Source: an uncultured Erythrobacter sp.
Lineage (GTDB): Bacteria > Pseudomonadota > Alphaproteobacteria > Sphingomonadales > Sphingomonadaceae
Direction of reading: 5' to 3'
DNA length: 64,000 nt
NCBI GenBank assembly: GCA_913055155.1
Contig: CAJXJR010000006.1
Span: 124,001-188,000 of the forward strand
The notes under the pieces were generated by a model, which was given only the letters and a program-made list of their open reading frames with translations, searched no databases and was not told where the DNA came from. How positions within the stretch are numbered: position 1 is the first letter of the stretch; each line of letters starts with the position of its first letter. The position numbers and the translations under genes were made by a program. Below, in pieces: positions 1-53,756 of this stretch.

Positions 1-1782
1 CTGCACGGTGAAGGGGCCGTAATCGACATGGGTGCCGCTGCCCGCGATATGGGTACCGTCGTCCAGCAGCTCTCCATCCACCGTGGCGGACAGCTTGCTG
101 GCCTGCACGTCCAGTGCATTGAAGGTGAGCGGCATGTTGCCGCCCATGGCCAGCGCGCCGTCGAAGGTCACGTCCTCGCCGGCGATGGTGGTGACGGTGG
201 GGTTGGTGACGGTGTCGACCGCCCCTTCCATCTCCACGCGCAGCATCCACGGCGCGCCGCCGCCGATGCGAAAGCGGATCTGCGCCCCGGCATCGATCAG
301 CCCGATGCCGTCGAAATCGAGATCGGCGATTTGCGCAGGGCCGCTTACCTGCGTCAGCCCGCTGTCGAGGTTGGCGTTGAGCCCCCATTGCGCACGCATC
401 CTGGGGAACTGCACGGCAAGGTCGTCCGAAAGGATGGAATTGCCCGCATAGACAAGGGTGCCGCGCAGGATACCATTGACGAGGCGCGGATCGAACAGGT
501 CCGCCCCGCTGACGATGCGCCCGATGGACGCATCGAGCGGCACGGAAACGCGCGTGCCATCGTAAGCCAGCGTGCCCTGCTGCTGCACATCGCGCACCAG
601 GATGCCCCCGGCGTCGATCTCTCGCACGGAAAGGTCATGCGCCATGGTGAAGTCGCGGAATGGCCCCTGCAGCGTGCCCTGCAGGTCCAGCCCGTTCAGT
701 GCCACGTCGGGCGAGAACAGCGTCGCGTCGAGCAGTTGCACCCCGATATCGAACCCGTCGAAGGCATTGTCCGCCAGGTCCAGCGCGCCCTCGCCATTGG
801 CGTTCACACCGCGTGCGCGCAGCGTGAAGTCGCCCTCCAGCACCGAATCGACCAGCGTCCCCGATGCAGAAAGGTCGACCGTTTCGCCCAACGCCCGTTC
901 GGGAATTCCCGAAAGATAGGCCGCCGGGTGCGCCTGTCCCACCACGCGGTATTGCCCGCTCTCGTTGTAGAGATCGAAGTCGAGCAGGTCCTCGCCGCCT
1001 TGCGTCGCCAGCAGTTCGCCTTCCCACGACGTCCAGCTGCCATCGCCGTCGAGGCGGATCGACAGGTCTTCCTCTACCCCCACCATGGTGGCAAGAAAGC
1101 CTCCCGCCGGGGCCTGCCAGGTCAGGTCAATGTCGAACTGGTCGCCATCGGGCTCTGCATGGACAAGTGCGGCAAATTCGTCGCCGCCGCCGAAATCGCC
1201 ATCGGCATCGAGGTAGACCAGCCCGTCGCGTACGTCGGCTTCGGCGGCGAAATTGATCACCCGCTGTTCGCCCAGCAGGCCCTCGGCCACGGTCAGGTCC
1301 TCGATCACGAAGCGGTCCACGCGGATATCGAAATCGGGTAGGATCGGTGCGTCGGGATCGCCCGGAAGCAGATTCGGCGCGGCGTAGAGCGTGCCATCCG
1401 CCAGTACCAGGTGGCGCACGTCCAGCCCGCTGAAGAACCAGCGCCACGGTCGCCAGTTGAGGTCCACCGTCGGCACTTCCAGGAACAGCGTGTCGTCGGC
1501 GTCGTACAGCTTCACGTCGTGGAAGGTGCTGCTCCACAACACCGATCCGTCGATCTCGCCCACTTCCACATGCAGGCCCGATGCAGGAGCGAACTTGCTG
1601 ATCTGGTCGACGATGAACTGCCGCCCTGGCGGGGTGTGGAGGAAGGCGATCACCAGCAGCAGCAGCGCCAGCAGGCCTGCCAGCGCCCACCCCAGCCAGC
1701 GCAAAAGGCGCAGCGGCAGCGGCCGCTTGCGCGCCACGGCTTCGCCTTCGGGCCCTTCGTCGGTAGCGATATCGTCTACCAT
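1..1782 (-). CDS. tamB: TamB, inner-membrane translocation and assembly module (partial, C-terminus outside window)
   Basis: The open frame of 594 codons runs off the window edge without a stop. A short charged N-terminus precedes one hydrophobic segment at about residues 25-49. The rest is a long, low-cysteine, Asp/Gly-rich beta-repeat region typical of TamB/AsmA-like proteins. The family spans the periplasm from an inner-membrane anchor and works with the outer-membrane TamA in envelope protein or phospholipid traffic. TamB proteins are usually well over 1000 residues, so perhaps half is visible. The ATG at 1782 overlaps the tamA stop as TGATG, indicating translational coupling. Identity rests on the tamA partner and overall architecture rather than on the missing C-terminal domain. 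Confidence 0.88.
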   Translation of the reverse strand, partial: MVDDIATDEGPEGEAVARKRPLPLRLLRWLGWALAGLLALLLLVIAFLHTPPGRQFIVDQISKFAPASGLHVEVGEIDGSVLWSSTFHDVKLYDADDTLFLEVPTVDLNWRPWRWFFSGLDVRHLVLADGTLYAAPNLLPGDPDAPILPDFDIRVDRFVIEDLTVAEGLLGEQRVINFAAEADVRDGLVYLDADGDFGGGDEFAALVHAEPDGDQFDIDLTWQAPAGGFLATMVGVEEDLSIRLDGDGSWTSWEGELLATQGGEDLLDFDLYNESGQYRVVGQAHPAAYLSGIPERALGETVDLSASGTLVDSVLEGDFTLRARGVNANGEGALDLADNAFDGFDIGVQLLDATLFSPDVALNGLDLQGTLQGPFRDFTMAHDLSVREIDAGGILVRDVQQQGTLAYDGTRVSVPLDASIGRIVSGADLFDPRLVNGILRGTLVYAGNSILSDDLAVQFPRMRAQWGLNANLDSGLTQVSGPAQIADLDFDGIGLIDAGAQIRFRIGGGAPWMLRVEMEGAVDTVTNPTVTTIAGEDVTFDGALAMGGNMPLTFNALDVQASKLSATVDGELLDDGTHIAGSGTHVDYGPFTVQ

Positions 1783-3911
1783 CAGAACGCCTGCCCCAGC
1801 CCGACATAGACGGCCACCCAGTTGTCGTTCGGCCCCGGATTGAGCGGGAAGGCAACATCGACCCGCAACGGCCCGAAGCCGGTGTCGTACCGCACGCCCA
1901 CCCCGGCGCCAAACTTGATGGTGCTGAAATCAGGCGTCGGGTCGAGGCCAACCGAGCCGGCATCGACAAAGGGCACCACGCTGATCGCGCCGTCCATCAG
2001 TCCGGTTGCGATACGCGCTTCGGCGGAGAGCTCCACCAGGCTGCGCCCGCCCAGCGGGTCGCCGGTATCGTTCAGCGGGCCGATCTCGCGATAGCCATAG
2101 CCGCGCACCGATCCGCCACCGCCGGCATAGAGCCTGCGCGAAGGCGCAATGGCATCGAGCGGCGCGCCGGGAATACTCGCCACGCGCACTCGCCCCGCCA
2201 GCACCGTGTTTTCACCCACCGAACGATAGTACGAGGCATCCACCTGGCTACGGACGTAGAAGCTCTGCACGCCGTTGTTGTCGGAAACTTCGGGCGACAG
2301 GCGCCCGGACAGGCGCCAACCCTTCGTCGGGTCGAGCATGTCGTCGGAACTGTCGAGCTGGGCGAACAGCGGCACGGCGCCGATCAGGTATGTCTCGCGC
2401 GCCAGGTTGCTGCCGTCGGCGGCGCGCTCGTTCTCCTGCGTTGCGACAAGTTCCACACCCACGGACCAGCTGAAGCCCTTTTGGAACAGCAGCGTGCTGA
2501 CCCGTTCGTAGGTGCCGATCAGCGAAGCCGTGCGCGCGTTGTAGGCAGAGTAATCGATGGTAGAGGCAAAGGCATCCAGCGTCAGGATACGGTCGCGGCC
2601 GCGGAAATTGTTCTTGCGGAAAGTGACGCCCGCCAGCTGTTCCTGCGTGCCGGCAATACCGCGCACGCGCAGCATGCCTTCGGGCGGAAACAGGTTGCGG
2701 TGCTCCCAGCTTGCTTCGAGGCGGAAGCCTTCTTCCGTGCCATAGCCGATGCTGCCGGCCAGTGTGCGCAGCGGCGCGGGCGTCATGTCGGCCTGGATGT
2801 CGACCACGCCGGGCTCGGTCTCGGTCGGCTCCTGCACCACCACCGGGGTCAGGTCGACGGAGCCGAGCAGGCCGGTGGCCAGCATGGCGCGGCGCAGGTC
2901 CACCTGGTCGCTGCGGCGATAGATCTCGCCTTCGTCCCAGCGGGCGATGCGGCTGAGGTGGCGGCTGGACAGGAAATCGGGATCGGAACTGACCACCGTG
3001 CCCAGCAGGTAACGCCCGCCAGGCTGCACAGCCATCGTCAGGTCGCCCTCATCGCGGGCATGGTCCACCAGCAGGCTGGGGGCATCGATCTCGGCAAAGG
3101 GAAAGCCGCTTTCGCCCAGCGCAACCGAAAGGTCGCTGCGTTCCGCCACGATCCCGTCGAGCGAGATCGGGTCGCCCGTTTCGATGTCGAAAGAACGGCG
3201 CAGCGCCGAAAACTGGCTGTCGGCAGCTGCCAGGTCGCCAAGGTCGATCGCGCCATAGCGATAGCGTTCACCCGGAACGATATCGAAACGCACGCCCGCC
3301 TCGCCCGGCGCGTTCTCGCCGATGGTGCGGGTCACCTGGCCATCGAAGTAGCCGTAGACGCGCAGCAGGCTGTTCAGCAGGTCCTCGTCCTCGCGCGCCT
3401 GCACGGCAAGCCGGGCGATGTTCCCCTCGTCGTCGTATTCGCCCACGGTCGAGAGCGTTTCGAAGCGCGAGACGAACTCCTTGCGCTGCGGGAACAGGTC
3501 GCGATCGGTGGGGAAGGCCAGCACCAGCTGGTCGGAAATGCGTTCCTCGGTGCCGGTCTCCACGCGCGGGATCTGTTCGTCGAACTGGACGAATTCCACC
3601 GGCTCTTCCGCCGGTTCCAGCGGGGCGAGCTGCGGCAGGTCGATACCCTCGGGCCATGGCACGGTGATCGCGGGCATCTGCGCCATCGGGGCATCGACGC
3701 CCAGCGGTTCCTGCGCCTGGGCATCGCTCCGGTCCTGCGCGGGCACGCCCTCGGCCGCCCAGTCTTCGGGATTTTCGACCGCGGAATCGGGGATCAGGTC
3801 TTCCAGCCGCGGCGGGGGCTCGCGGTCCTGCGCCGCCGAGGGGCTGGCGAGCAGCGGACTGGCCAGCAGCGCCAGCGCTGCGGCCAGCGCAGTGGAAGTC
3901 CGGGCGATCAT
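1782..3911 (-). CDS. tamA: TamA, outer-membrane BamA-family assembly factor
   Basis: A 709-residue protein. A signal peptide (about residues 1-28, ending ASPSAAQ) is followed by an acidic, proline-rich linker and POTRA-like repeats at about 120-390. A C-terminal Omp85 beta-barrel ends in a terminal Phe, as expected for an outer-membrane protein. The frame stays open upstream to 4205, but that part lies inside bpt. The ATG at 3911 directly precedes the signal peptide and lies 10 bases after the bpt stop, so it is the likely start. It overlaps tamB by one base and presumably forms the TAM complex with it. BamA itself is excluded by the linkage to tamB. Confidence 0.93.
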   Translation of the reverse strand: MIARTSTALAAALALLASPLLASPSAAQDREPPPRLEDLIPDSAVENPEDWAAEGVPAQDRSDAQAQEPLGVDAPMAQMPAITVPWPEGIDLPQLAPLEPAEEPVEFVQFDEQIPRVETGTEERISDQLVLAFPTDRDLFPQRKEFVSRFETLSTVGEYDDEGNIARLAVQAREDEDLLNSLLRVYGYFDGQVTRTIGENAPGEAGVRFDIVPGERYRYGAIDLGDLAAADSQFSALRRSFDIETGDPISLDGIVAERSDLSVALGESGFPFAEIDAPSLLVDHARDEGDLTMAVQPGGRYLLGTVVSSDPDFLSSRHLSRIARWDEGEIYRRSDQVDLRRAMLATGLLGSVDLTPVVVQEPTETEPGVVDIQADMTPAPLRTLAGSIGYGTEEGFRLEASWEHRNLFPPEGMLRVRGIAGTQEQLAGVTFRKNNFRGRDRILTLDAFASTIDYSAYNARTASLIGTYERVSTLLFQKGFSWSVGVELVATQENERAADGSNLARETYLIGAVPLFAQLDSSDDMLDPTKGWRLSGRLSPEVSDNNGVQSFYVRSQVDASYYRSVGENTVLAGRVRVASIPGAPLDAIAPSRRLYAGGGGSVRGYGYREIGPLNDTGDPLGGRSLVELSAEARIATGLMDGAISVVPFVDAGSVGLDPTPDFSTIKFGAGVGVRYDTGFGPLRVDVAFPLNPGPNDNWVAVYVGLGQAF

Positions 3912-3921
3912 GTGATCCCGC

Positions 3922-4785
3922 TTAGGTGAGCTTGTATTCCTGCTGCAAGCCCGGCGTGTTGTCTTTCGAGCCGCCGTCGGTTGCACGTGCGCGCCCGCAA
4001 GCACCCTTGGCAACGCCTTCGATAAGGCGGCGCTGCTCGTCTTCGGACATGCGTCGCCAGCCATCGGGGCCAAGCGCTTCGAGCGGCCGGAAGCGGACCT
4101 TGTACTGCATCCGCTCGGACCCCTCGACCCAGTAGCCGAGGTAGACATAGGGCAGGCCCGCCGATGCGGCCCGCTTGATATGTTCGAGGATGACGTAATT
4201 CCCAAGCCCGCTGCGATTTTCCAGTTCCGGGTCGTAGAAGCTGTAGATCATCGACAACCCGTCTGCCTGCCTGTCAGTCAGGCAAGCAGCGACCAATCGC
4301 CCAACGGAACCGTCCTTCGTCGGTTCCCGATATTCGATCACGAAACTGGAAACGCTGGTGTGTTCCACCATGTCGGCATAGTCCACCTCGTCCATGGCAG
4401 CCATGCCGCCGCCGGGGTGGCGATGTTCGAGATAGCGCTGCAGCAGGGCGAACTGTTCCTCGGTCGCCCACGGGCGACATTCGGTCACCACCAGATCTGC
4501 ATTGGCCTTGAGCGCGCGCTTCTGCGAGTTCGAGGGCTTGAAATCGTCAGCAGCCACGCGCACCGAAACGCACGCCTTGCACCCTTCGCAGCTAGGCCGA
4601 TAGGCCACCGTCTGGCTGCGGCGAAAGCCGATCCGGCCCAGCGCGTCGTTCAACTGTTCCGCATGCGGGCCCTTCAGCTCGGTGAACACCTTGCGCTCCG
4701 TCTTGCCCGGCAGGTACGGGCACGGCGCAGGGCTCGTCACGAAAAAGCGGGGGAAGCGAACGGGGGCCGACACGTAGCTAGGCAA
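3922..4785 (-). CDS. bpt: Aspartate/glutamate leucyltransferase (bacterial N-end rule)
   Basis: A 287-residue cytoplasmic enzyme of the Bpt/ATE family. It transfers leucine from Leu-tRNA to proteins with N-terminal Asp or Glu, marking them for ClpAP through ClpS. The N-terminal CxxCxxC cluster (SCEGCKAC, about residues 65-72) and the C-terminal acetyltransferase-like half with the [11 protein letters not shown] and MQYKVRFRP stretches are diagnostic. Its length matches the family. It is the first gene of a tight bpt-tamA-tamB run. The 188-base gap upstream towards ilvA is the probable promoter region, though I could not pick a convincing -35/-10 pair there. Confidence 0.93.
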
Positions 4786-4973
4786 GTCCTCAAGGTGTTT
4801 GTGCAGTAGCGCAGTTCATCCGCGCCACACCCGACCCTTAAGACCACAGGGAATCGCGCAGATGAACCATGTTAACCATAAAACCCGCGTCACGCAGGCT
4901 TAATTTCCACAAATAGCATTCGTGGCTCGGTTAACGGCCCGAAACGGGGCAGTTCGACAGTGCGGGCGCGGCG

Positions 4974-6212
4974 TCAGTTCAGCTCCACCCGGTCGACCGA
5001 GTAGCCCTTCTCCTCCAGGGAGGCGACGAGGTCTTCGAGCTGCTCGCGATCGCGCGCTTCGCACTCGATATCGGTAATCAGGCCCTTCGCCGGCAGGTTG
5101 GTGAAAATGCGCTGGTGGTAGATTTCCAGGATGTTGACATTGTGCTTGTCGAACTCGCGCATCACCTTGAACAGCGCGCCGGGGCGATCCTGCAGGGTGA
5201 TCTGCAAGCGCGCAAGGCGGCCCGAACGGGCCAGGTCGCGCAGCAGTACGTTGGCCAGCAGGCGGGTATCGATGTTGCCGCCGCACAGCACCAGCCCCAC
5301 CTTCTTGCCGGCAAACCGCTGGCGATGGGCCAGCACGGCAGCCAGCCCGGCAGCGCCTGCGCCTTCGACCACGGTCTTCTCGATTTGCAACAGCAGCGAG
5401 ACGGCCTCTTCCAGGTGCCGCTCGTCCACCAGCAGGATGTCGTCGACGACCTTCTCGATCACGGTTTGGGTGAACTTGCCCGGTTCCTTCACCGCGATGC
5501 CCTCGGCCAGCGTATCACCGCCAGAAGGCAGGTCTGCCTTGGCCCAGGCGTTGTAGCTGCTGGGATAAAGCCGCGCCTCGGCGCCGATCACTTCCACCGG
5601 CGGCACCTGCGCCTTGGCCACGGTGCCCATGCCGCTGATCAGGCCGCCGCCGCCGATCGGTACGACAATCGTCTCGATCTCGGGCGCATCGGCCAGCATT
5701 TCCAGCGCCACCGTACCCTGCCCTGCGGCAACATGGGGATCGTCGAACGGGTGGACGAAGGTCAGGCCCAGTTGCTGCTCCAGCTTCAGCGCATGGGCAT
5801 AGGCCTCGTCGAAGGTCTCCCCTTCCAGCACCACGTTGCCGCCGACGCTTTCGGTCTGCATCACCTTCACCGTGGGCGTGGTGCGCGGCATCACGATGGT
5901 GACCGGCACGCCCAGCCGCGTGCCGTGGTACGACAGCCCCTGCGAATGGTTGCCGGCAGAGGCCGCGATCACCCCGCGCCGGCGCTGTTCGTCCGACAGC
6001 AGCAGCAGCGCGTTCAGCGCGCCACGCTCTTTATAAGCCGCGGTGAACTGGTGGTTCTCGAATTTCAGCCACACTTCCGCGCCAAGGATCTTCGACAAGG
6101 TCTGCGAATGCAGCGTGGGCGTGTGCACCACGGCACCCTTGATCCGCTCTGCCGCGGCACGCACTTCATCCAGCGACAGGCTGGGGGCGACACTCTGTTC
6201 TGTTGCGCTCAT
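4974..6212 (-). CDS. ilvA: Threonine ammonia-lyase (threonine dehydratase) with C-terminal ACT domain
   Basis: A 412-residue PLP enzyme that deaminates threonine to 2-oxobutanoate, the entry to isoleucine synthesis. The Schiff-base lysine is Lys61 in QFTAAYKERGA. The glycine-rich phosphate loop PIGGGGLISG lies at about 190, and CGGNID near 315 completes the fold type II site. A single ACT domain occupies about residues 335-412 (RPGALFKVMREFDKHNVNILE). One ACT domain fits the shorter class rather than the E. coli IlvA type with two, so effector behaviour cannot be inferred. The ATG at 6212 opens MSATEQS; an upstream extension would run into the divergent gene. Confidence 0.93.
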   Translation of the reverse strand: MSATEQSVAPSLSLDEVRAAAERIKGAVVHTPTLHSQTLSKILGAEVWLKFENHQFTAAYKERGALNALLLLSDEQRRRGVIAASAGNHSQGLSYHGTRLGVPVTIVMPRTTPTVKVMQTESVGGNVVLEGETFDEAYAHALKLEQQLGLTFVHPFDDPHVAAGQGTVALEMLADAPEIETIVVPIGGGGLISGMGTVAKAQVPPVEVIGAEARLYPSSYNAWAKADLPSGGDTLAEGIAVKEPGKFTQTVIEKVVDDILLVDERHLEEAVSLLLQIEKTVVEGAGAAGLAAVLAHRQRFAGKKVGLVLCGGNIDTRLLANVLLRDLARSGRLARLQITLQDRPGALFKVMREFDKHNVNILEIYHQRIFTNLPAKGLITDIECEARDREQLEDLVASLEEKGYSVDRVELN

Positions 6213-49148: not shown

Positions 49149-50648
49149 TTACCCCAGCTTGTCCTTCAGGATCTGGTTCACCACCGCCGGGTTGGCCTTG
49201 CCCTGCATCGCCTTCATCGTCTGGCCGACGAAGAACCCGAACAGCTTGTCCTTGCCGCCCTTGTACTGCTCCACCTTGTCCTGGTTGTTGGCCAGGATTT
49301 CATCGATCGCAGCTTCGATCGCGCCGGTGTCGCTGACCTGCTTCAGGCCTTCGGTCTCGGCGATTTCGGCAGGCTCGCGGCCCTCTTTCAGGACGATCTC
49401 GAAGATCTCCTTCGCCTGGCCGCCGGAAATCTCCCCCTTAGCCTGCATGTCGAGGATCGCGGCCTGGCGTTCGGCGGTGGCGTTAGCGGGATCGCCCTCG
49501 TCGCCCAGCGCCTTTATCACGCCTGGCGCGACCGAAAGCGACCAGTTGGCGACCTGTGTTGCCACGTCCTTCTCCGGCTTGCCGATGCCCTTGGCCGTGG
49601 CGGCCAGCAGCGTTTCGAAGCGGGCGAAGGTTTCCACTTCGGCGGTCAGTTCGCGCGCGTTGTAGGGCGTCAGGCCCAGTTCGTTCTCGTACCGGGCGCG
49701 CTTGGCGTCGGGCAGTTCGGGCAGCGAAGCGCGGCATTCCTCAAGGAAATCCTCGTGCAGCACCACCGGCAGCAAGTCGGGATCGGGGAAATAGCGATAG
49801 TCGTGCGCGTCTTCCTTGCTGCGCATGGAGCGGGTGGTGCCCGTGTTGGGGTCGAACAGGCGGGTTTCCTGCACCACCGTGCCGCCGTCCTCGATCACGT
49901 CGATCTGGCGCTGCACCTCGTGCTCGATCGCCTGCATCACGAAGCGCACCGAGTTGACGTTCTTCGTCTCGGTCCGGGTGCCCAGCTCGGTATCGCCCAC
50001 GCGCCGCACCGACACGTTCACGTCGGCGCGCATGGAGCCTTCTTCCATGTTGCCGTCGCACGATCCGACATAGCGCAGGATCGAGCGCAGCTTGCGGATA
50101 TAGGCCCCGGCTTCGGCGGGCGAAGTCATGTCCGGGCGGCTGACGATTTCCATCAGCGCCACGCCGGTGCGGTTGAGGTCGACATAGGACATGGTCGGAT
50201 GCTGGTCGTGCATCAGCTTGCCTGCGTCCTGCTCCACGTGGATACGCTCGATGCGGATCACCTTGTCTTCCGGAATGCCGGCCTTCTCGTCGGCTTCGAT
50301 CACCAGTTGCCCCTCGCCCACCAGCGGGTGGTAGAGCTGGCTGATCTGGTAGCCCTGCGGCAAGTCGGCGTAGAAGTAGTTCTTGCGGTCGAAGCGGCTC
50401 CACGTGTTGATCTGCGCCTCGATCGCCATGCCGGTGCGCACGGCCTGGCGGATGCACTCGCGGTTGGGCACGGGCAGCATGCCGGGCATGGCCGCGTCGA
50501 CCAGCGAGACCTGGCTGTTGGGCTCTGCCCCGAAAGCGGTGGAGGCGCCGCTGAACAGCTTCGCCTTGCTGGTGACCTGCGCATGGACTTCAAGGCCGAT
50601 CACGACCTCCCATTCGCCCGTTGCGCCGTGTACTCGATAATTGCTCAT
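49149..50648 (-). CDS. gatB: GatB, Asp-tRNA(Asn)/Glu-tRNA(Gln) amidotransferase subunit B
   Basis: A 499-residue kinase/tRNA-binding subunit. The cradle domain begins [22 protein letters not shown] and carries the family runs LPQGYQISQ and [19 protein letters not shown]. The C-terminal helical and YqeY-like tail (about 350-499) binds tRNA. It activates misacylated Glu or Asp on tRNA before amide transfer by GatA. In this genome it is separated from gatA by an inserted DUF1877 gene. Confidence 0.97.
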
Positions 50649-50649
50649 C

Positions 50650-51227
50650 TTAATAGCTCACTGTGAAAATCACATTCTTGCCGTTTGAAGCCGCCTTGCG
50701 GAAAAAATCGACCAGACCGGAATACCAACTCTGCCAATATTCTACGGCATTGTCTGCACTTCCTGACGCGCCGAATTTCACGAGTGCGGCGCGCAATCCC
50801 CTCTCAAGGTCATTCGGAGATATGCGCTCCAAGTCTTCAGCCACCAATGCTACCGTTGAACTCGTCATCAATCCAACGGTGCCATTTTCGTCATTTCGAA
50901 GTTGCTCTTCGCCGAGGAATGCCATTTGTGCGGGCCGACGCTCAAATTCCTGCGGCTTCTTTCCAAGAAGGCGATCAAGAAAGCCCGGTTGTTCCGCAAC
51001 CCTAAAAATCAGCGGTCCATCGGGATCAGTCAGGTTCAGAGCGGAGTGAATGTAGGCCCACGCACGATCAGTCTCGCAACAATCATCTGTTCCGAATTTC
51101 GATTGCTCAAGCTCTTCTGCGATATGGTCAAACAGCCCTGCTTTGGAGACCGTTCGCAACTGCTGCAATTCACTAACTGCTGCAATTCACTCTCGTCAAG
51201 AGCGATGTGTAGCCCTAGCATCCCCAT
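50650..51227 (-). pseudogene. DUF1877 (YfbM-like) gene broken by a 17-bp tandem duplication
   Basis: From the ATG at 51227 the frame reads MGMLGLHIALDESELQQL, then shifts and stops after 63 residues at 51036. Removing one copy of a perfect 17-bp tandem repeat (51158-51191) restores one 186-residue frame continuing RTVSKAGLFDHIAEELEQ to the stop at 50650. The restored start and AWAYIHSALN region match DUF1877/YfbM, a family of unknown function. The ATG lies two bases after the gatA stop and the gene ends one base before gatB. GC is visibly lower (27 and 33 of 60 in two lines, against 41 of 60 in nearby gatB). A TTG at 51168 could still yield a 172-residue product. Confidence 0.85.
51158..51191 (+). 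repeat. Perfect 17-bp tandem duplication causing the DUF1877 frameshift
   Basis: AACTGCTGCAATTCACT occurs twice with no gap (51158-51174 and 51175-51191). Seventeen is not a multiple of three, so the second copy changes frame. It looks like a replication-slippage event, potentially reversible. Confidence 0.97.
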
Positions 51228-51229
51228 CG

Positions 51230-52711
51230 CTACCACCACTTCTCCGGCTGCGCGGTGAACCCGGCGCGCTGTTCGATGGCGAGGCCGGCGTTCAGCACGC
51301 CTTGCTCGTCCATCGGCTTGCCCACCAGGTGCAGGCCCAGCGGCAGGCCGTCCTGGGTCAGCGTGGCGGGCACGCTCATGGCGGGCAGGCCTGCCAGCGA
51401 TGCCGGAACCGAGAACACGTCGTTCAGGTACATCGACAGCGGATCGTCGGTCTTCTCGCCCAGCGCGAAGGCTGCCGTCGGCGTGGTCGGCGTCAGGATC
51501 ACGTCCACCTGTTCGAAGACGTCCATGAAGTCCTTCTGCACCAGTGTGCGCACCTTCTGTGCCTGTGTGTAATAGGCATCGTAGAAGCCTGCCGAGAGCA
51601 CATAGGTGCCGATCAGGATGCGGCGCTTCACCTCGTCGCCGAACCCGTCGGAACGGGTGGCGGCATACATGTCCTGCAAGCCAGCGCCCTCGGGCAGGTC
51701 GCGCAGGCCGTAGCGCACGCCGTCATAACGGGCGAGGTTGGAGGACGCTTCGGCAGGGGCGATGATGTAATAGGCGGGCAGCGCATATTTGGTGTGCGGC
51801 AGCGAAATGTCGACCACCTTGGCCCCTGCATCGCGCAGCCACTGCTTGCCCTGTTCCCAGCTTGCCTCGATCTCCGGGTCCATGCCGTCCACGTGGTATT
51901 CGCGCGGGATGCCCACGGTCTTGCCTTCGAGGTTGGAATCCAGCGCGCCTGCCCAATCAGGCACCGGGGCATCGATGCTGGTCGAATCCTTGGGATCGAA
52001 ACCCGCCATCGCGCCCAGCATGATCGCGCAGTCTTCCACGCTGCGCGCCATCGGGCCAGCCTGGTCGAGCGAGCTGGCAAAGGCGACGATGCCCCAGCGG
52101 CTGCACCGGCCATAGGTCGGCTTGATCCCGGTAATGCCGGTGATCGCGGCGGGCTGGCGGATCGAACCGCCGGTGTCGGTACCGGTCGCCGCCGGGCACA
52201 GCCGCGCGGCCACGGCAGCTGACGAACCGCCCGAGGAACCGCCCGGCGTCAGCGTGGCATTGCTGCCCAGCTTCTTCCACGGGCTGGCGACATTGCCGAA
52301 ATAGCTGGTCTCGTTGGACGAGCCCATGGCGAACTGGTCCATGTTCAGCTTGCCCAGCATGCCCGCGCCGGCATCCCACAGCTTCTGGCTGACGGTGCTT
52401 TCGTAAGGCGGCTTGAACCCTTCCAGGATGTGGCTGGCAGCAGCGGTCTGCACGCCCTTGGTGGCAAACAGGTCCTTCATGCCGATCGGCACACCGGCCA
52501 TCGGGCCCAGTTCTTCCCCGGCAGCGCGCGCGGCGTCAACCTTGTCGGCAGCGGCCAGCGCGTGGTCGGGTGTGGCCACGATGAAGGCGTTGAGTTCGCT
52601 CGCGGCGGCAACGGCATCGTTATGCGCTTCGGCCACTTCGCGCGCAGTGAAGTCGCCGGCGGCCACGCCGTCGCGGATGGCCTTCAGGCCCATTTGCGTG
52701 AAATCGGTCAT
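51230..52711 (-). CDS. gatA: GatA, Asp-tRNA(Asn)/Glu-tRNA(Gln) amidotransferase subunit A
   Basis: A 493-residue amidase-signature enzyme that hydrolyses glutamine and passes ammonia to GatB. The triad is visible as Lys79 ([11 protein letters not shown]), Ser159 ([10 protein letters not shown]) and Ser183 ([10 protein letters not shown]), with the canonical 24-residue spacing between the serines. Its length is normal. The 115 bases between it and gatC contain a palindromic repeat element. Presence of GatCAB means this organism probably makes Gln-tRNA or Asn-tRNA by the indirect route. Confidence 0.97.
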
Positions 52712-52826: not shown

Positions 52827-53129
52827 TCACTCGATCACCTTGGGCACGCCGAAAAAGCCGTGTTCGGCCACAGGCGCATTGGCCAGCACGTCGTCGCGGC
52901 GGCCGCCGCCGGTCAGCGGGTCGGCATCCACCACGTCGTCGCGCAGGCGCTGTTCCTGCGGGATCACCGCCGTCATCGGCTCCACCGCGCTGGTATCGAC
53001 CTCGCCCAGTTGCTCGACGAAGGCGAGGATATTGTTGAGTTCGGGCACCATGTGGTCGAGCGCAGCCTCGTCCATGCTGATGCGCGCCAGACTGGCAATC
53101 TTGGCGACTTCTTCTCGGGTTACAGACAT
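52827..53129 (-). CDS. gatC: GatC, amidotransferase subunit C
   Basis: A 100-residue belt-like subunit that holds GatA and GatB together. The N-terminal [23 protein letters not shown] and the [24 protein letters not shown] segment are diagnostic, and the C-terminal half is largely loop. The ATG at 53129 gives the conserved MSVTREEV start; codons upstream are rejected. First gene of the gatC-gatA-(DUF1877)-gatB series. Confidence 0.95.
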
Positions 53130-53189
53130 GGCCCTCGCGTTAGCCGCGCGGCGGCTGCGCTTCAAGCGGGTCTGTGCAGCGAAAAGCGC

Positions 53190-53756
53190 TTATTGCGGCG
53201 CGGGTCCGGCCTCGCCAGCGCCCTGCTCTTCCATCTGCTGCTGCATCATCATCTGCTGGAAGGCGGCAACCCGGTCCTGGAAGTCCTGGCGCGACATGAA
53301 ATCGATCACTTCGATGTCGAAATAGAGGTCGGCATTGGGCGGGATCGGGCCGCCTTCGGGCACGTCTTCGCCATAGGCCTGATCGGACGGGATGAAGATC
53401 TCGTACTGGCCGCCCTTCTGCGTCTGCATCAGCGCGTCGCGGAAGCCGGGGATCATGTCGCCCAGCGGCAGCGGGGTGCCATCGGGGAAGATGCCTTCGA
53501 TCGGCAGCGGCATGGTTTGCGACTGGTCGAACACGGTGCCGTCGGCCAGCTTGCCGGTGTAGTTGACGAAGACCACGTCTTCCGCCGTGGGATTGGGCCC
53601 TTCGCCCGCGCGTACGGTATCCACCGACAGTCCCTTGGGCATGGCGGCCCAGGCAATCGCCACGGCCAGCACCACGGCCACCAGTACGCCCAGCCAGAGC
53701 TTGGTGAGCGATCCCTTGGCAATCGGCTGCAGCGGTACGCGGGTGACTTCGGCCAT
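53190..53756 (-). CDS. FKBP-type peptidyl-prolyl isomerase, membrane anchored
   Basis: A 188-residue protein. An N-terminal hydrophobic helix (about residues 19-37, LWLGVLVAVVLAVAIAWAA) acts as an uncleaved anchor placing the domain in the periplasm. The FKBP domain (about 55-168) shows VFVNYTGKLADGTVFDQS, GDMIPGFRDALMQTQKGG and the SDQAYGE loop. The C-terminal tail is Gln/Met-rich (FQQMMMQQQMEEQ). It catalyses proline isomerisation during envelope protein folding. A perfect 16-bp palindrome lies 21 bases upstream of the ATG. Confidence 0.93.
   Translation of the reverse strand: MAEVTRVPLQPIAKGSLTKLWLGVLVAVVLAVAIAWAAMPKGLSVDTVRAGEGPNPTAEDVVFVNYTGKLADGTVFDQSQTMPLPIEGIFPDGTPLPLGDMIPGFRDALMQTQKGGQYEIFIPSDQAYGEDVPEGGPIPPNADLYFDIEVIDFMSRQDFQDRVAAFQQMMMQQQMEEQGAGEAGPAPQ

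Follow-up and report, generated by a model that had tools for sequence, protein, structure and literature searches.

The 64-kb stretch of DNA analysed here (the window) carries gatA and gatB on one strand, and the slot between them holds a DUF1877 gene that is split in two by a perfect tandem duplication (Table 1). The spacing is tight on both sides. The head frame opens two bases past the gatA stop, and the downstream frame runs for 172 codons without a further stop and ends 1 nt before the gatB ATG. No promoter-like site was found at 50500-51400 in a scan that covers one promoter type, and the single terminator-like site within the DUF1877 gene equals the chance expectation of 1.0.

Table 1. 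Coordinates of the features at the gatA/gatB junction, as positions within the window
Feature	Position	Strand	Description
gatA	51230..52711	-	Amidase PF01425, 487 bits; last 20 nt strongly Shine-Dalgarno-like (-7.9)
gatA/gatB slot	50649..51229	.	581 bp, GC 0.51; length and content differ among most relatives
Head frame of the broken gene	51036..51227	-	ATG 51227, 63 codons, stop 51036-51038; the DUF1877 frame is kept for the first 17-18 residues only
First 17-bp copy in the reading direction of the gene	51175..51191	-	Stop 51187-51189 within it bounds the downstream frame on the upstream side; read off the sequence
Second, identical 17-bp copy	51158..51174	-	Contains the in-frame TTG 51166-51168
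Downstream DUF1877 frame	50650..51168	-	172 aa from TTG; PF08974 profile positions 17-163, 58 bits
gatB	49149..50648	-	GatB_N, GatB_Yqey; start 1 nt past the DUF1877 stop

We compared both frames with the DUF1877 profile PF08974. The downstream frame, at 58 bits versus a gathering cut-off of 22, belongs to the family. Its match covers positions 17-163 of 163, with profile position 17 at residue 3, and no single open frame covers the profile from its first position. The same profile search with the 63-codon head frame gave no DUF1877 match. In this frame, 17 codons precede the end of the first copy and codon 18 straddles the copy junction. The initial annotation had described a DUF1877 gene broken in this way, and our analysis agrees: the lesion splits the gene into a 63-codon head and a 172-codon PF08974 frame. 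Its lengths of 186 codons for the gene and 172 residues for the shortened product both agree arithmetically with the frame coordinates.

The repeated 17-mer is AACTGCTGCAATTCACT. Its two copies are 100% identical and abut with zero bases between them, as had been noted initially. The period-17 match extends by 0 bases on either flank, which gives exactly 2.0 copies. Genome-wide (3,098,390 bases) the 17-mer occurs twice, both times at 51158-51191, and the window has no other exact tandem repeat of period 12-200. The loci of relatives (L048-L084; 298,069 bases) contain one exact tandem repeat, of 12 bp. Twenty order-3 Markov simulations of the window (periods 10-30) yielded only three repeats, each 10-11 bp long. 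Since the duplication is unique in the window and the simulations gave nothing above 11 bp, we do not attribute it to chance. Simple slippage often leaves homology at the ends of the repeated unit, and its absence here is a mild point against simple slippage as the mechanism of duplication.

A counterpart of the broken gene is present in G420, a genome of another genus in the same family. It occupies the same gatA/gatB slot as an uninterrupted frame of 175 aa that starts one base past gatA, and it covers PF08974 positions 1-163 with position 1 at residue 1. The two proteins share 43% identity over 166 positions. When the G420 protein was used as the query, only the gene in the window was matched in a 397-genome sample of the family, a sample that evidently does not include G420. 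Because profile position 17 falls at residue 3 in the window and position 1 at residue 1 in G420, a native head of ~16 residues fits the length expected with a single copy. The ancestral head length was taken here from the Pfam register, in place of an alignment of the DUF1877 proteins of the order. Such an alignment was tried and rejected: phmmer kept 2 of 12 other loci (L016 and L017 were left out), and these proved too diverged.

Given the uninterrupted positional counterpart and a profile spacing that fits one copy, the two-copy state appears to be derived, a reading that rests on one counterpart of 43% identity and on the family profile. The duplication is probably recent as well, as the copies are perfectly identical and the downstream frame contains no other stop. 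The event had been called recent from the outset. The G420 gene and the profile spacing bear on its derived state, and the recency itself is drawn from the identity of the copies and the open downstream frame. The locus thus has the features of a recent-frameshift pseudogene, with a frame broken relative to the intact G420 gene, the one positional relative found, and with no further decay.

The DUF1877 gene is rare in this group. Its protein has no match at E ≤ 0.001 in 60 related genomes, 36 of them of the same genus. PF08974 is present in 15 of 396 genomes of the order, with the genome under study counted, and adjoins gatA in two of these 15, our genome and G420 (flanks of ~1.5 kb were examined). 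In a search with both proteins, the same two loci were the only ones with DUF1877 among 73 gatA/gatB gaps longer than 50 bp. On these counts, we consider the gene dispensable in the group. A peptide-pattern search of genome contigs, which detects close relatives only and possibly left out the genome under study, matched 69 stretches, none of which encodes a relative. The same holds for the eight stretches matched in viral contigs. Plasmids contained no DNA similar to the gene, and a search of solved structures with the protein came up empty at E up to 1. DUF1877 is named in PMC5118866 and PMC5738691, and the available text of PMC5118866 gives no function. The composition of the gene is foreign-looking (GC 0.51 versus 0.65 for the window; GC3 0.52 versus 0.84 in gatA). 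The presence of DUF1877 in the slot of two genera would reflect either an old gene with many later losses or repeated gains at a single site.

We then consider the slot itself. Of 40 genomes of the genus searched, 36 could be measured; the others lack a full gatA (G034), have gatA in pieces (G005 and G023) or have no gatB on the stretch (G003). The gap between gatA and gatB ranges from 1 to 5205 bp, with 30 sizes in the 36 genomes (our own included), while the order and direction of the two genes are constant. Three of the 36 have a gap of 1 bp. Among the best 80 loci of a scan with gatB, 75 were measured, and 37 gaps of at most 56 nt stand beside 38 gaps of 96 to 5205, in a set that partly overlaps with the same-genus genomes. 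The closest named record by gatB among these best 80 loci is Aurantiacibacter odishensis (94%), which probably places the window in or close to Aurantiacibacter. Judged by open frames, slot contents include a 48-aa membrane-like protein and a 122-aa family. A Pfam scan of ten slot frames matched seven (a flavodoxin-like protein, three methyltransferases, an acyltransferase, a glycosyltransferase and a sulfotransferase) and left three without a match. In G420 (L013 / L084), DUF1877 is followed by a 53-aa membrane-like frame that resembles, by eye, the 48-aa slot frame of the window's genus.

With conserved flanks and contents that vary in size (30 sizes in 36 genomes) and Pfam class, the junction behaves as an accessory-gene hotspot. 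Our control for this is regional, namely neighbouring gene pairs in 20 of the 35 other genomes of the genus. In these 20 genomes the gatA/gatB gap takes 17 values between 129 and 3089 bp. Among control pairs found in at least 17 genomes, gatC/gatA spans -1 to 130, and most others vary by no more than ~125 bases. Several other junctions vary too: the pair 46109/47049 reaches 2006 bp, the pair 54713/55855 measures 580-736 bp in 5 of 20 genomes, and the pair 53890/54276 measures 1297 bp in one genome. The gatC/FKBP junction (52827-53190 in the window; L086-L105) is 1701-1867 bp long in 14 of 20 genomes and 5-84 bp in six, versus 24 bp in the window. The two genes that follow gatB were recovered in only 5 of the 20 control genomes. 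Hence, gatA/gatB is the most varied junction of this stretch, though not the only one that varies.

Variable genes between gatA and gatB have already been described for the Caulobacteraceae, where Caulobacter, Brevundimonas and Phenylobacterium carry varied genes at this position (PMC4221894). The likeness to our case extends from the junction and its variable accessory genes to the occurrence of an uninterrupted operon in relatives. The available text of that study covers few genomes and makes no mention of DUF1877, whereas the present set comprises 36 genomes of another genus with 30 gap sizes. Among the matches listed in our search of titles and abstracts, none concerned the gatA/gatB slot in the present genus. 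Hotspots of horizontal transfer flanked by core genes are well known, and many of them lack mobile elements (PMC5635113). High turnover between two conserved core genes is common to those hotspots and to this slot, but the flanks here are two genes of a single translation operon. A junction inside a probably essential operon has a repeated turnover of unrelated genes, with gatA and gatB remaining neighbours throughout. This makes it testable whether the junction tolerates landing genes because of the strong ribosome-binding-like sequence at the 3' end of gatA, and whether inserts affect the level of GatB.

No glutaminyl-tRNA synthetase (best match 74.8 bits versus a family cut-off of 425.8) and no asparaginyl-tRNA synthetase (84.7 versus 342.6) was found in the genome above the family cut-offs, and the sub-threshold matches are probably related synthetases. 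GatCAB is therefore presumably required. The last 20 nt of gatA score -8.8 on average versus the anti-Shine-Dalgarno sequence (37 loci; random 20-mers -3.63). The 20 nt preceding gatB average -4.22 (34 loci with gaps above 50 bp) and reach -2.8 in the window. Judging from this strong site at the end of gatA and the weak one before gatB, translation of gatB in the window may well depend on ribosomes that pass through the inserted gene. As a result of the lesion, 387 nt separate the head-frame stop from gatB.

Overall, we suggest, with a probability of about 0.73, that a rare accessory DUF1877 gene in the gatA/gatB junction had 17 bp duplicated by a single error, lost its protein product or most of it, and is now a young pseudogene. 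We infer a course of events in which a rare gene of the DUF1877 family would have arrived in the junction from outside. Ribosomes leaving gatA would have translated it and then proceeded to gatB, until, in the recent past, one error of replication or repair duplicated 17 bp near its 5' end. As 17 bp is not a multiple of three, the frame is lost. Ribosomes starting at ATG 51227 would now halt after 63 codons, and the DUF1877 protein would be lost or greatly reduced. The gene is very probably knocked out by the duplication, while the fully open downstream frame of 172 aa counts against a complete loss of product.

Tandem duplications are known to arise as plain mutations in Xenorhabdus lrp, where three of 26-116 bp occurred among 25 distinct mutations (PMC6786866). 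As here, a tandem duplication within a coding sequence alters the protein, and in lrp the duplications stand among mixed mutation types. The window differs from those cases in that the unit is 17 bp long and the affected gene is an accessory one in an alphaproteobacterium. The duplication looks like an ordinary mutation and shows a rare, foreign-looking gene probably soon after its break. The more useful outcome of our analysis is the breadth of turnover at the slot.

It is unlikely, in our judgement, that the gene still works. Translation would then start at TTG 51168 or 51159 and give a shortened DUF1877 protein, the duplication would be nearly neutral, and the open frame would carry ribosomes to gatB. 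The open 172-aa frame, with profile positions 17-163 and an end 1 nt short of gatB, is in line with this, and the expected need for GatCAB in the absence of GlnRS and AsnRS matches above the cut-offs would favour ribosome flow toward gatB. A 172-residue product from TTG 51168 had been put forward in the initial annotation. The frame for it is indeed open, but the preceding 22 nt are no more Shine-Dalgarno-like than random (-2.3 kcal/mol versus the anti-Shine-Dalgarno sequence; mean of random window sequence -3.94), and the first 16 profile positions would stay uncovered.

We find it rather improbable that the repeat is an on/off slippage switch, a possibility raised in the initial annotation, in which gain and loss of a copy would toggle DUF1877, and possibly also gatA-gatB coupling, within a population. 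Genes that are phase-variable through a repeat tract usually carry several units in the tract. Recombination or slippage between perfect direct repeats is possible in principle, and with a unit of 17 bp, not a multiple of three, a copy change shifts the frame. Phase variation by repeat copy number has been reviewed (PMC11868660). Promoter tandem repeats of ~54-57 bp in Mycobacterium tuberculosis, present in few copies, vary in isogenic populations at 10^-2 to 10^-3 per chromosome (PMC12817950), so a low copy number alone is no disproof. There, as would be the case here, a change in copy number alters expression. Those repeats lie in promoters and their variation was observed, whereas the unit in the window is 17 bp long, lies in a coding frame and is known from one sequence. 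What speaks against a switch is the zero homology beyond the 17-bp unit, the lack of a second such repeat in the window, the single frame without a repeat in the G420 positional counterpart, and the rarity of the DUF1877 gene. Phase variation was also rejected for Xenorhabdus lrp, but this says little about the reversal of duplications; the eight isolates of that reversal test are listed as point, nonsense, frameshift and transposon mutants (PMC6786866). Highly improbable is the further idea of a reversible device, in which two copies would cause early ribosome drop-off and less translation of gatB than of gatA, and one copy would bring the coupling back. If it were true, the GatA:GatB balance, and hence the accuracy of Gln/Asn decoding, would differ from cell to cell.

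An artefact of assembly or sequencing, with one copy in the actual genome, is very unlikely. The assembly is a draft of 21 contigs, but the repeat lies inside a contig of 208 kb, the genome scored 100% complete with 0.12 contamination, and the 34-bp array is far shorter than a usual sequencing read. We give hardly any credence to a transposon excision footprint, a 17-bp target duplication left behind as two abutting copies: such perfect copies without end homology are the expected remnant, but target duplications of bacterial insertion sequences are usually shorter than 17 bp, and nothing lies between the copies.

Several smaller observations concern the inserts of other genomes. In L053 (G033), positions 1280-1333 of the gap past gatA hold a 54-bp copy (98%) of the gatA 3' end, stop included. 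It follows an acyltransferase insert, which gives the impression that the inserted DNA carried in or copied a gatA tail of its own. A duplicated gatA tail was rejected as a general signature of insertion, being seen in G033 only and absent from the other 36 of 37 measured loci, which gives no sign of a common integration mechanism. At positions 496-1506 of the gap in L054 (G029), an acyltransferase-like frame gains, by eye, an unrelated-looking tail roughly halfway, and is possibly another broken insert.

We also rejected inserts that start right after gatA as strong evidence of coupling, since their excess over random is moderate. An open frame of at least 40 codons directly follows gatA in 29 of 34 gaps above 100 bp versus 599 of 1020 random opposite-strand positions, and for an open frame of 110 codons the counts are 20 of 34 versus 330 of 1020. 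Likewise, many frames overlap the gatB ATG with their end owing to the frequent ATGA or ATGAGTAA at the start of gatB. In six loci with long inserts (L060, L061, L065, L072, L073 and L077), the last 45 nt before gatB look alike by eye: a CTTGCG- or CTTTTC-like box, a spacer, a TTATCG- or CTATCG-like box, ~10 nt and the ATG, as if gatB had its own promoter near its start.
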